The notes beneath the pieces were generated by a model, which ran no database searches, was not told the DNA's origin, and worked only from the letters and a program-made list of their open reading frames with translations. Positions 53,309 through 57,763 of a DNA stretch of 64,000 nucleotides are shown one piece after another. The stretch comes from Fulvimarina sp. (GTDB lineage Bacteria > Pseudomonadota > Alphaproteobacteria > Rhizobiales > Rhizobiaceae). A program made the position numbers and the translations under genes. The stretch spans positions 1 through 64,000 of the forward strand of contig PACL01000009.1 of the NCBI GenBank assembly GCA_002700095.1. Reading direction: 5' to 3'. Positions within the stretch are counted from its first letter, which is position 1. The number at the start of each line of letters is the position of its first letter.

Positions 53309-53824
53309 ATGCGCGCTCTTGCTGCCGCCATCCGCAACGGCTCGATCAAGATCAGCCCGGATCCCGAGAAACCGATCCCGCGGCCGATCCTGCTATCGGC
53401 CGGGGCGCTCGCTTTTGCCGCGCTCGCCGCCATCGCGATGGGCCGCACCACCGGCGTCGGCCTTGCCGATACGCCGGCGATCCCGACCGTCGCCCATCGC
53501 GATCTGCAGCTGGCCGAGCATGACGACGGCTCCGCCGCGGTCATCGACGCCGCAAGCCGTGAGACGCTGATCGAGGTCGGGCCGGGGAGCGGCGCCTTCG
53601 CCATCGAGGTGCTGCGCAATCTCGCCCGCGACCGGATCCGCAAGGGCGCGGCGGCGGATGCGGCACCCTACGTCCTTGCTCTGAAGGCCGACGGAAGGCT
53701 GGTGGTCGAGGACCCGCAGACCCGCCAGCAGGTGGAATTGAGGGCGTTCGGGAAACTCCAGGCGGAGGCCTTCGCCGGCCTCATGACTGCCGCCGACGCC
53801 GCAACCGAGGGAGGCGCGAAATGA
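53309..53824 (+). CDS. puhC: Photosynthetic complex assembly protein PuhC
   Basis: A 171-residue protein with one membrane anchor (about 27-46: ILLSAGALAFAALAAIAMG) and a periplasmic beta-rich domain containing LIEVGPGSGAFAIEVLRNLARDRIRKG, the PuhC signature. It affects LH1/reaction-centre organisation. AGGAAAGGA precedes the ATG. Its stop overlaps the next start by four bases. Confidence 0.9.
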   Translation: MRALAAAIRNGSIKISPDPEKPIPRPILLSAGALAFAALAAIAMGRTTGVGLADTPAIPTVAHRDLQLAEHDDGSAAVIDAASRETLIEVGPGSGAFAIEVLRNLARDRIRKGAAADAAPYVLALKADGRLVVEDPQTRQQVELRAFGKLQAEAFAGLMTAADAATEGGAK

Positions 53825-54123
53825 TCGACCGCTTGCTCAAGAAACGATCCGAAGACGTCTGTTGTACCGTCGAGGTCTCCAACACCTTCGAGAGCCTGCA
53901 CGCCCATGTGCGCTTCGATGGCGGCGTGACCGTCGAGCCGGGCGACGAGGTGCTGGTGCATGGGGCGCCCGTCGAGGTGCCCTATGGCGAAACCGCCTAT
54001 CTGCGGCGCCGCGCGACGATCCGCCGGGCCGGCTGGCTGGAGCGCCAGTGGACACGGGCGACCGGCGACTTCGAATTCATGGAACTGTGCGAATTCTCCT
54101 TTTCTGAGAGGGCAACCCTATGA
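53821..54123 (+). CDS. Conserved photosynthesis-cluster protein (about 100 residues)
   Basis: A 100-residue protein starting [23 protein letters not shown]. It occupies the place of the small conserved gene that precedes acsF in many alphaproteobacterial photosynthesis clusters. Visible features: an N-terminal paired Cys, [12 protein letters not shown], and a C-terminal [21 protein letters not shown] segment. Function is unknown; a role with AcsF or with pigment-complex assembly is suggested only by position. Overlaps both neighbours by four bases. Confidence 0.78.
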
Positions 54124-55211
54124 ACGCGCACGCGAAAATCTCGGGCGCCGCACCGGTTCGCGCCGAGGCGCCGAACGAGACCACCAAGATCGCGCAAGCT
54201 GACACGCTGCTCACGCCGCGCTTCTACACCACCGACTTCGACAAGCTCGACAAGGTCGACGTCTCCGGGGTGCGGCGCGAATGGGACGCGCTGATCGCCG
54301 AGATGAAGTCGGACCCCAACCGGGGCCATTTCCGGCGCGACGAAAACTGGGACAAGATCGAGTTGGAGGATCTGCCGGAGGGCCTTCGCAAGGAATTCGT
54401 CGACTTCCTCGTCTCCTCGCTGACGGCGGAATTCTCCGGCTGCGTCCTTTACAAGGAGATGAAGCGGCGCGGCACCAACCCCGATATCTGCGAGCTCTTC
54501 TCCTATATGAGCCGCGACGAGGCCCGCCATGCCGGCTTCATCAACGACGCGCTGAAAGAGTTCGGCATCGGCGTCAATCTCGGCTTCCTGACCAAGGAAA
54601 AGAAATACACCTTCTTCCAGCCGAAATTCATCTTCTACGCCACCTATCTCTCCGAGAAGATCGGCTACTCCCGCTACATCACCATCTTCCGGCATCTCGA
54701 GCAGCACCCCGAGCGGCGGATCCATCCGATCTTCAAGTGGTTCGAGAAATGGTGCAACGACGAGTTCCGCCATGGCGAAGCGTTTTCCCTCTTGATGCGG
54801 GCCGAGCGGCACACGCTGGAAGGCCGCAACAAGCTCTGGATCCGCTTCTTCCTGCTGGCGGTCTATGCGACGATGTACATCCGCGACCATGCCCGTCCGG
54901 AGTTCCACAAGGCTCTGGGGCTCGACCCGTCGGAATACGGGTTCAAGGTCTTCCGGATCACCAACGAGATTTCCAGGCAGGTCTTCCCGCTGATGCTCGA
55001 CATCGACAACCCGCGCTTCAAGGCGGGGCTCGAGCGGCTCCTGAAGATCAGCCGCGACATCGACGCCGCGGCGCGTGAGGGCGGCGTACTCGGCAAGCTG
55101 AAGGTCTGGAAGGGCAAGGCTGCTGCGACACTCGCCTTCGCCCGGCTCTACACCCTGCCGGTCATCCGCAACGAGATCCCGGCGGAGAGCAAGCTCGTCC
55201 CGGTGTGGTGA
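54120..55211 (+). CDS. acsF: Magnesium-protoporphyrin IX monomethyl ester oxidative cyclase, aerobic
   Basis: A 363-residue di-iron oxygenase. Iron-ligand motifs: [12 protein letters not shown] preceded by [21 protein letters not shown] and [14 protein letters not shown]. It closes the isocyclic ring of bacteriochlorophyll using oxygen, so this organism can make pigment aerobically; the anaerobic enzyme BchE is not in the window. The last residues ([15 protein letters not shown]) match AcsF. Coupled by ATGA to the upstream small gene. Confidence 0.95.
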
Positions 55212-55253: not shown

Positions 55254-55390
55254 CGCCGCAGCAACGTTGAAGGCCGGGGCAGGAACCTTTGCACGTCATC
55301 CTCGGCTTGACCCCGGTTTCGGCTCCCGCCGCAGCAACTTTGAAAGGCGGAGGCATAAACCCGAACTCGTCATCCCGGGCTTGACCCGGG
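55254..55390. repeat. Imperfect 73-base tandem repeat after acsF
   Basis: CGCCGCAGCAAC..TTGAA begins at 55254 and recurs at 55327, each copy ending in a GTCATCC..GGCTTGACCC.GG element. The copies differ at scattered positions, so the duplication is old. No gene is in this stretch. Confidence 0.65.
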
Positions 55391-55505
55391 ATCCATTCCG
55401 AACCGTGGACGCCGCTCACACGGTTCACTCGATCGAGACGCGCTTCCACATCGCACCGGCCATTCGGCGGCGGAGGAATGGATCCGGGGCAAGCCCCAGA
55501 TGACG
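55369..55505. repeat. REP-like inverted-repeat element
   Basis: Left arm 55369-55399 reads GTCATCCCGGGCTTGACC.. ending GGATCCATTCC; right arm 55475-55505 is nearly its reverse complement. The GTCATCCCGGGC..GACCCGGGATCC core recurs at 62.7 kb and is a common intergenic repeat in alphaproteobacteria. Folded as RNA it could act as a terminator or stabilise the acsF end. Confidence 0.75.
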
Positions 55506-55618
55506 ACCGCGAGGGGATCTCGTCTGCAACCCGGCTGACGGCGATCGCGACTCCCGGAACACCCGCGGCCCCTTCGACGGACCAAGGGTCGACACATGTT
55601 GAATGAAGGACCCCGGCC

Positions 55619-57763
55619 ATGACCGAATATCTCTACCCGGCGCTGTTCGCCCTCGTCGTCTGGTGGGCCTCGACGGTGGCGATCATATATCTCGACGGAC
55701 TGCCGCGCTGGACGTTCAAATATTCGATGATCGGGGCGACGGCGATCTTCGCCATCTCGCTGATCGGCCTGCAGACCTCGGCGCAGGATGCCAGCATCAC
55801 CGGCGCCTATCTCGCCTTCACCTTCGGCCTGCTTGCCTGGGGCTGGCAGGAGATGAGCTTCTACATGGGCTACGTCACCGGCCCGCGAAAACAGCCATGC
55901 CCGGAGAACTGCAAGGGTTTCGGCCACTTCGTCCACGCGGTGCAGACCAGCCTCTACCATGAGCTGGCAATCATCGCGGCGGCAGGCCTCGTCGTCTGGC
56001 TCACCTGGGGCGCGCCCAACCAGATCGGCATGTGGACCTTCATGGTGCTGTGGTGGATGCACCAGAGCGCCAAGCTCAACGTCTTCTTCGGCGTCAGGAA
56101 CCTCAACGAGGAGTTCCTGCCCGAGCATCTCGAATTCCTCAAGGGCTTCCTCAACAAGCGCTCGATGAACATGCTCTTCCCGTTCTCCGTCACCATCTCG
56201 ACGGTGATCACCGCGCTGCTCGTCGTCGCGGCGATGGCGGAGGGCGCATCGGCCTTCGAGAAGGCCGGCTACACCTTCCTTGCCGTCCTGATGGCCCTGG
56301 CGATCCTCGAACACTGGATGCTCGTCCTGCCGATGCCGACGGCGACCCTGTGGTCGCCCGGCCTGAAGTCGCGCGGCACCAGCCAACCCTTCGAGGCCGA
56401 GATCGTCGTCGGCTTCCTCGGCGCCGGCAAGACGACGACGCTGCGCCACATGCTGGCCGAGGCCGATCCGAACGTAAAGACCGTCGTCCTCGTCAACGAC
56501 TTCGGCGAGCTCGGCATCGACGGCTCGCTGCTCGAAGGGCAGGGCGCCGACGTCGTCGAACTTTCCAACGGCTGCATCTGCTGTTCGCTGCGCAAGGACC
56601 TGTCGGCGCAGCTGCGCGAGGTCGTCGCCAAGATCAGGCCGCAGCGGGTGCTGATCGAGCCCTCCGGAGTCGCCGACGTCGCCTCGCTGCTGCGGGTGCT
56701 GCACGAGCCGGAGATCGCGAGCCTCACCAGGGCGCTGCGGCTCTACACCGTCATCGACGCCGGCGCGTTCCTGAAGGACTTTGCCCGCATGCCGGAATAT
56801 TTCCGCATCCAGGCGAAGCTCGCTCCGGTCTTCATCCTCAACAAGACCGACCTCGTCTCGCCGGGCGAACTGGAAACGGTCCGCGAGACCCTCGTCGCGC
56901 TCAATCCCGCCGCGACCATTCTGACGGCCCGCTACGGCATCGTCGACGGCACGCTCGATCCGGCGCTCGCCCTGTCGCACTGGCAGAGCGAGAGCCGCGA
57001 CATGATGCATGACGAGCTGGCGCAGGAACGGGCCCACCGGGCAGAGGCGGCCAGGCCCCGCGCGCCCCATGGACAGGCGGGCCACCCCGTCGCGGCGCAT
57101 GCCGCCCACGGCGGCCAAACCAGCGCGACCGCCGCTCACGCCGGACATCACCACGACCACGACGCCCACGCCCATGGCGCCGCCGCCCATGCCCGCGCGC
57201 ATGGCGCCGCCCCCCATGCTCACGATGCCCACGAGGAGGGCGGCCACCTCGCCCATGCCCATCATGACCATGACCACCACGATCATCGGCAGGAAAGCCA
57301 CGGTAACCAGGCGCATCACCACCACCACGCCCACGCCGATCATGACGACCACGACCACCACGACGATCACGGCCACCACCACTATGACGCGCCGGGCCTT
57401 GGCCTCTCCTCCTGGAGCCGGCGGCTCTCCGGCCAGGTCGATGCCGACGCGCTCCGCGCCGTCCTCGCCGAGGTCGTCGCCGGAAAGGCCGGCGGGATCG
57501 ACAGGATGAAGGGCATCGTCGAGACCAGGAGCGGCTGGCTTCGCTTCGACGTCGCCGGCGGCCGGGCCTCGATGGCGGCGCATGTGCCCAAGCCCGGCGA
57601 GACGGCGCGGGCGCTGGCGATCGGCGCCGACCCGAGCGCCGCCTGGCTCGACCGGGCCTTCGCGATGCTGACGGGCGAAACGGTCGCTGCGACGCCGATT
57701 ACGCCGACGGAGGCTCAGGTGTCGGTGCACGGGCCCGCGGCAAACATCCTGCCGGCGGAATAG
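55619..57763 (+). CDS. puhE: PuhE fused to a COG0523 metallochaperone GTPase with a His-rich insert
   Basis: A 714-residue continuous protein. Residues 1 to about 250 are PuhE (DUF3623): seven or so membrane helices, with FYMGYVTGPRKQPCP and KLNVFFGVRNLNEEFLPEHLEFLKGFLNKR. After a short linker begins a G3E GTPase: Walker A GFLGAGKT (265-272), NDFGELGIDG, the metal-binding CICC motif (C319, C321, C322), EPSGVADV and NKTD (408-411). Residues about 484-587 are a run with about 40 His, then a CobW_C-like domain to the end. COG0523 proteins load metal into client enzymes or buffer metal. In other known photosynthesis clusters PuhE stands alone. The client (AcsF iron, Mg-chelatase, another) is not determined. 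Ribosome site GAAGGACC. Confidence 0.88.
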   Translation: MTEYLYPALFALVVWWASTVAIIYLDGLPRWTFKYSMIGATAIFAISLIGLQTSAQDASITGAYLAFTFGLLAWGWQEMSFYMGYVTGPRKQPCPENCKGFGHFVHAVQTSLYHELAIIAAAGLVVWLTWGAPNQIGMWTFMVLWWMHQSAKLNVFFGVRNLNEEFLPEHLEFLKGFLNKRSMNMLFPFSVTISTVITALLVVAAMAEGASAFEKAGYTFLAVLMALAILEHWMLVLPMPTATLWSPGLKSRGTSQPFEAEIVVGFLGAGKTTTLRHMLAEADPNVKTVVLVNDFGELGIDGSLLEGQGADVVELSNGCICCSLRKDLSAQLREVVAKIRPQRVLIEPSGVADVASLLRVLHEPEIASLTRALRLYTVIDAGAFLKDFARMPEYFRIQAKLAPVFILNKTDLVSPGELETVRETLVALNPAATILTARYGIVDGTLDPALALSHWQSESRDMMHDELAQERAHRAEAARPRAPHGQAGHPVAAHAAHGGQTSATAAHAGHHHDHDAHAHGAAAHARAHGAAPHAHDAHEEGGHLAHAHHDHDHHDHRQESHGNQAHHHHHAHADHDDHDHHDDHGHHHYDAPGLGLSSWSRRLSGQVDADALRAVLAEVVAGKAGGIDRMKGIVETRSGWLRFDVAGGRASMAAHVPKPGETARALAIGADPSAAWLDRAFAMLTGETVAATPITPTEAQVSVHGPAANILPAE

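Follow-up and report, generated by a model that had tools for sequence, protein, structure and literature searches.

The window analysed here is the whole stretch of 64,000 nucleotides taken from contig PACL01000009.1 of a Fulvimarina sp. Downstream of puhB, puhC and acsF, and upstream of a GNAT gene on the opposite strand, it contains a gene in which PuhE is fused to a COG0523 GTPase. The features of this region are as follows.

54120 to 55211, + strand: acsF, the upstream neighbour (NCBIfam AcsF 501.1 bits, cut-off 192.5)
55619 to 57763, + strand: puhE-COG0523 fusion gene, 714 codons plus stop in one open frame
55619 to 56353, + strand: PuhE/DUF3623 domain, residues 1-245, with seven predicted membrane helices (Pfam 355.8 bits)
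55898 to 55936, + strand: candidate metal site Cys94-x3-Cys98-x4-His103-x2-His106, in a loop and the start of PuhE helix 4
56354 to 56404, + strand: junction of 17 residues, with no start codon of its own in the window
56405 to 56953, + strand: COG0523 G domain, residues 263-445 (Pfam cobW 146 bits)
56411 to 56434, + strand: Walker A motif
56573 to 56584, + strand: CICC metal motif, residues 319-322
56657 to 56668, + strand: EPSG motif
56840 to 56851, + strand: NKTD motif
56954 to 57394, + strand: His-rich low-complexity linker, predicted to be disordered and fast-evolving
57395 to 57688, + strand: CobW_C-type C-terminal domain, residues 593-690 (about), placed by a profile of fused domains

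Pfam assigns residues 1-253 of the encoded protein to DUF3623/PuhE (355.8 bits, cut-off 27) and residues 262-435 to cobW (146 bits, cut-off 20.7), and the NCBIfam equivalog for PuhE, TIGR03055, is reached with 320.1 bits (cut-off 164.05). Walker A (GFLGAGKT) begins at residue 265, CICC occupies residues 319-322 and NKTD residues 408-411, so that the single uninterrupted frame with PuhE and a motif-bearing GTPase reported in a preliminary description of this DNA is present in all its parts. The AlphaFold model (mean pLDDT 70.9) displays seven helices in the PuhE part (5-26, 30-54, 60-87, 101-129, 136-157, 186-205 and 212-236), the G domain and a folded C-terminal domain; residues 482-592 of the linker, which holds up to 26 His per 60 residues, are disordered (pLDDT <50). 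Charged loops suggest that the C-terminus, and with it the fused GTPase, is located on the cytosolic side. Pfam did not report CobW_C for the tail of the window protein at 1e-3; by profile, however, this domain behind the His-rich stretch is the same as the tail of L022, a PuhE without GTPase.

With plain PuhE (TIGR03055/DUF3623, PF12291) the window protein shares the whole domain, the seven helices, which a passage of PMC12423673 also gives for PuhE, and the place behind acsF, but it continues with a GTPase, a His-rich linker and a CobW_C-type domain. With the COG0523 GTPases YjiA, ZigA and CobW it has in common Walker A, CxCC, NKxD and the CobW_C-type fold, whereas its GTPase is joined to a membrane protein and stays below the NCBIfam cut-offs for CobW proper (TIGR02475, 96.9 bits versus 332.1) and for ZigA (NF038288, 99.8 bits versus 600). 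Both PDB sequence matches were YjiA. Two minor observations concern the surroundings. A 100-codon frame at 53821-54123, lying between puhC and acsF and sharing a few bases with each, has no Pfam or NCBIfam family match at 0.001, and inverted GGATCC-containing stretches in the gap between acsF and puhE (55370-55560) look like an intergenic repeat element.

Junction, distribution and ancestry of the fusion

To place the window gene among its relatives, 152 PuhE frames with at least 90 bits were merged where their first 200 residues were shared, giving 120 rows: 38 fused (F), 9 with the C-terminal domain and no GTPase (C-type) and 73 plain ones (U) of 258-369 residues. The architecture of DUF3623 plus CobW, for which a search across genomes had been proposed, thus accounts for 38 of the 120 distinct PuhE; since the fusion served as query in collecting some of them, this share is not a natural frequency. 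Fused members occur in Jiella, Aurantimonas, Fulvimarina, Acidiphilium, Acidocella, Lichenicoccus and other Acetobacteraceae. As the junction is the same in all 38, with Walker A always at residue 263-265, the frameshift or assembly error at 56340-56420 considered in the preliminary description is excluded. Its other reservation, that two proteins might be made from separate starts, is not supported either: codons 240-277 of the window gene contain no in-frame ATG, GTG or TTG, from residue 243 to Walker A an in-frame start is absent in 21 of the 38 fused genes, and in the other 17 the positions of such starts are scattered. The fusion is real and conserved.

A scan of genome contigs with the fusion as query left 79 loci, among which 24 hold PuhE, 23 of them fused and one (L022) without GTPase; among the fused ones, L008 from Jiella pelagia is frameshifted and L019 and L020 run off their contigs. 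In the remaining 55 loci only the COG0523 part was matched and PuhE was not seen. A census by DUF3623, unseeded by the fusion, covered three sets. In the own family, PuhE is present in 14 of 121 genomes and fused in 5 (the call for G099 and G082 rests on their frames, 307 and 351 aa long). In the class, 29 of 385 genomes have a DUF3623 match, 27 of them over the cut-off, and 3, including the window's own genome, are fused. In the Acetobacteraceae group of G454, PuhE is present in 79 of 249 genomes and the fusion junction in 19, two of which (G559, G576) are cut by the contig end; 11 of the 79 were counted by reported frames of up to 314 aa (G717, G647, G583, G695, G689, G642, G698, G599, G530, G679 and G522). 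These numbers (3/27, 5/14 and 19/79) bear out the earlier statement that PuhE is usually a separate protein. Among 72,556 plasmid records, none carried the fusion in one place covering 80% of the protein. The window genome shares its GTDB genus with G020, and the PuhE of G020 matches the one in Jiella mangrovi (L003).

In a PuhE-domain tree made by a quick method, L022 adjoins the fusions of the Aurantimonadaceae and the eight C-types of the Acetobacteraceae are located elsewhere. A single clade of the fused rows was not rejected (p-AU 0.395), nor was one of the fused rows with L022 (p-AU 0.315). A single clade of the fused rows with all C-type rows was rejected (p-AU 0.0021), and the C-type may therefore be an older or a recombined state. 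The quick tree nests the Aurantimonadaceae fusions among the Acetobacteraceae with modest support; their grouping with the four unfused PuhE of the same GTDB family was not rejected (p-AU 0.401), and for this reason no lateral transfer from Acetobacteraceae to Aurantimonadaceae is claimed. Fused PuhE on contigs labelled Kouleothrix (L020, Chloroflexota) and Ferrovum (L015) sit among the Acetobacteraceae, and these contigs are probably mis-binned. G556 possesses two fused copies, of which L191 lies on a short contig that has no acsF.

The GTPase and the C-terminal domain

GCICC is intact in 32 of the 35 fused members longer than 450 aa. L021 and L171 have lost it together with other GTPase motifs, and L008 is out of frame there; this frameshift in the GTPase part of the complete Jiella pelagia genome (L008:6001-7443) is either a real mutation or a sequencing error. 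The densest His stretch of complete fused members ranges from 4 to 31 His per 60 residues. Pairwise dN/dS for nine pairs, some with a common member, was 0.03-0.17 for PuhE, 0.04-0.19 for the GTPase, 0.10-0.40 for the C-terminal domain and 0.18-0.58 for the His linker (one pair not computable); the GTPase is under purifying selection like PuhE.

A GTPase profile was built from 12 fused domains and used at E 1e-10 on 46 genomes, 6 of them fused, with matches in 45. The four intact fused members searched, all of them rows of the profile, scored 327-346 bits, and two decayed fused members outside the profile rows still scored 213 and 196 bits. No stand-alone COG0523 among the 46 genomes exceeded 139.3 bits, and the genomes searched that have plain or C-type PuhE therefore contain no stand-alone ortholog of the fused GTPase. 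A stand-alone partner acting in trans for plain or C-type PuhE was rejected for these genomes on the same scores. That two unrelated proteins were joined by chance and each works alone would agree with PuhE being unfused in most genomes that have it, but we consider such neutral hitch-hiking quite improbable, for the junction is fixed in 38 distinct sequences, the GTPase forms a private subfamily and both parts are under selection.

None of the 32 fused members checked has a Cys between Walker A and CxCC. An additional pair of conserved cysteines, C56 and C61, is present in CobW, and this pair, according to an excerpt of PMC7895991, is missing from the zinc-preferring relatives of CobW; from the numbering, we read the pair as lying between Walker A and CxCC.

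Nine sequences (L155, L158, L160, L164, L167, L168, L174, L188 and L022) consist of PuhE and a CobW_C-type tail and have no GTPase. The tail of L022 reaches 36.2 bits with Pfam CobW_C (cut-off 22). This C-terminal domain is well predicted, and in the PDB its fold is matched best by three YjiA entries, with E values from 4e-4 to 8e-4 and an rmsd of 2.4-2.6 across 96-98 columns. For the PuhE fold there was no PDB match, only YjiA chains being found under E 0.001 with the L022 model. As L022 still has the His-rich stretch, its GTPase was most simply excised. A profile of fused tails gave 45-116 bits for the C-type tails and no more than 47 for 80 stand-alone COG0523 frames; eight of the nine C-type tails (65-116 bits) exceed all stand-alone frames and L188 (44.7 bits) does not. 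Similarly, a profile of C-type tails gave 62-112 bits for 34 fused tails and at most 42 for 77 stand-alone frames.

PuhE and a CobW_C-type docking arm could be the conserved functional unit, with the GTPase as an optional switch sensing GTP or metal and not a delivery machine. This agrees with the nine sequences that keep PuhE and the C-terminal domain without GTPase, with two fused members whose GTPase motifs are decayed and whose C-terminal domain is intact, and with the tail profiles in both directions. However, the ninth C-type tail is not above the best stand-alone frame, CxCC is intact in most fused members, the GTPase is under strong purifying selection, and one clade of the fused and all C-type rows is rejected. 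We regard this explanation as rather unlikely.

The candidate metal site and a second PuhE in Fulvimarina

One alignment of the 120 rows shows the complete set of Cys94, Cys98, His103 and His106 in every one of the 38 fused PuhE, in none of the 9 C-types and in 17 of the 73 plain ones. His148 is present in the 38 fused sequences, in no C-type and in 8 plain ones. These 8 fall in a 47-row clade with the fusions and keep the Cys/His set without a GTPase, so that the pattern mostly reflects ancestry. L022, next to the Aurantimonadaceae fusions, lacks the GTPase and also H103, H106 and H148, and is the single clear case in which absence of the GTPase accompanies absence of ligands. In the opposite direction, L021 and L171, which have lost CxCC, retain the Cys/His set, as do the 8 plain PuhE. 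On the tree, the correlation between GTPase and Cys/His set was not significant, there being at most 5 independent contrasts, 1 of them on starred branches. Residues E78, E115 and E231 occur in all 120 PuhE, H114 in 118 and H232 in 119, and because of this near invariance a membrane-embedded site for metal or pigment may exist in PuhE of all lineages. To our knowledge, PuhE has not been reported to be a zinc protein and is an assembly factor without a known biochemical activity.

Fulvimarina pelagi (G022) possesses a second, divergent DUF3623/PuhE (L273:9216-9971) at the end of a zinc-uptake cluster (L273:9216-14861). It follows ZinT, a ZigA-like COG0523 (517.5 bits, below the ZigA cut-off of 600) and DUF1826 on one strand, and ZnuA (over its cut-off) and ZnuC (slightly under) adjoin. 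An inverted repeat whose 13-base arms are perfect precedes ZinT; its core, TGTTATNNNATAACA, was found with 0 mismatches where 0.05 matches with up to 2 mismatches are expected. A second PuhE is also present in both other genomes of the genus found, G750 and G751, with 2-mismatch boxes nearby (0.01 and 0.00 expected); the G751 copy is a remnant, and the neighbour of the G750 copy is an EitA-like siderophore-binding gene and not znu. Matches to the palindrome in 64 photosynthesis-cluster loci (L001-L024, L193-L212 and L276-L295; 970 kb) numbered two, in L015 and L208. The window contains 0 matches to the core at up to 2 mismatches, and a Zur-like box was not found upstream of the fusion. The boxes are called Zur-like for their resemblance and position, and we infer that they bind Zur.

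Both full-length second copies lack Cys94, Cys98, His106 and His148. His103 is missing in the F. pelagi copy, and in the G750 copy a His aligns with position 103 beside a gap. Both copies also lack H114, E115 and H232, and the second PuhE may therefore do something else. Zinc-independent paralogs without zinc ligands, located in Zur-regulated clusters with COG0523 and zinc transport genes, are described in part of PMC2770081, where DUF1826 is named in a figure legend. Like such Zur-regulated paralogs (DksA, HemB2), the second PuhE of F. pelagi is without the Cys/His set and is grouped with ZnuA, ZnuC, ZinT, COG0523 and DUF1826, but, unlike them, it has also lost other conserved residues.

Probable client and proposed mechanism

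The comparative evidence points to zinc, not iron, as the metal and to PuhE itself as the client, since fused PuhE carries the Cys/His set, a PuhE paralog without this set lies in a zinc-uptake cluster of F. pelagi and there is no Cys between Walker A and CxCC in 32 fused members. The reading that we tentatively prefer is that the fusion is a zinc metallochaperone tethered to the membrane, with the PuhE part of the same protein as its probable client. The gene product would be a single membrane protein in which the assembly factor PuhE is equipped with a COG0523 (G3E) metallochaperone facing the cytosol. In its GTP-bound state the GTPase would pick up zinc at the putative CICC site, the His-rich stretch would serve as a local metal buffer and the CobW_C-type domain would hold the partner; a client-binding role of the C-terminal domain is suggested for COG0523 proteins in part of PMC7689651. 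Hydrolysis of GTP would then pass the metal to a site made of Cys94, Cys98, His103 and His106 on the cytosolic face of helix 4, perhaps joined by the near-universal membrane residues E78, H114, E115, E231 and H232, and metallated PuhE would act in pigment and reaction-centre assembly. Metal binding, zinc as its identity, PuhE as client, transfer driven by GTP and the effect on assembly are what we infer from these comparisons.

The preliminary description had put forward, as a hypothesis, a role of the GTPase in bringing iron to AcsF, the di-iron cyclase encoded by the neighbouring gene. Its starting point, a metal-type GTPase covalently joined to PuhE in the photosynthesis cluster, stands, whereas iron for AcsF as its specific role is not supported. 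The gene directly upstream of the fusion is indeed acsF, and some COG0523 proteins (Nha3) serve iron enzymes according to a passage of PMC9164220. However, acsF adjoins puhE, fused or not, in 59 of 60 neighbourhoods (the exception being L191) and, in the second set L276-L295, in 20 of 20, so that the neighbourhood gives no reason for AcsF as client. In addition, in the unfused L300, outside both sets, puhE is accompanied by puhC and puhB, with no acsF within the fetched stretch, and the PuhE paralog of Fulvimarina has a zinc context. Delivery of iron to AcsF is therefore very unlikely.

A zinc metallochaperone for PuhE could be carried further. PuhE might be a hidden zinc metalloprotein and the fusion, with chaperone and client in a single chain, a self-loading zinc checkpoint that permits the assembly of pigment and reaction centre only with enough zinc and GTP; under zinc shortage Fulvimarina might replace it, through Zur, by a PuhE that works without zinc, and in Acidiphilium the fusion might supply the zinc of Zn-bacteriochlorophyll and so be the factor still missing there. 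This extension is speculative, and we hold it to be unlikely as a whole.

No description of a PuhE-COG0523 fusion was found in the open-access papers searched, and a word search of PMC2770081 did not find 'fused', 'fusion' or 'photosynth'; the fusion is apparently undescribed so far, a variation on COG0523 proteins with the chaperone covalently attached to a membrane protein that is probably its client. Many COG0523 proteins are without known clients, as stated in part of PMC9164220, and the fusion directly names a candidate client for one of them. A metallochaperone together with a candidate metal site makes the role of PuhE a testable question of metal loading. Also, the fused group includes Acidiphilium, for which an excerpt of PMC7242693 presents the entry of zinc into bacteriochlorophyll as an open question.

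Supply of metal to the reaction centre or pigment, in Acidiphilium of zinc into Zn-bacteriochlorophyll, is a further possible role for the GTPase. In the Acidiphilium genus group all 3 genomes with a PuhE match are fused (the PuhE of Acidiphilium rubrum, L009, is the same as that of G598), and the route of zinc into Zn-bacteriochlorophyll is left unexplained in passages of two reviews (PMC7242693, PMC12654162). PufL and PufM were searched in 23 fused genomes and PufL was read in 19, with G002, G578 and G556 outside and no match in G219. Glu at the PufL position numbered L168 is associated with Zn-bacteriochlorophyll. It is present there in 4 of the 19 genomes (three Acidiphilium and G527) and His in 15; the window's own genome has His. 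The fusion is thus not a marker of Zn-bacteriochlorophyll, and its use as such was rejected, as the residue at L168 does not track it. Since the fusion is far wider than Zn-bacteriochlorophyll, a role in pigment or reaction-centre metal supply seems hardly likely. In the same searches G546 gave four PF00124 matches and probably possesses two pufLM sets.
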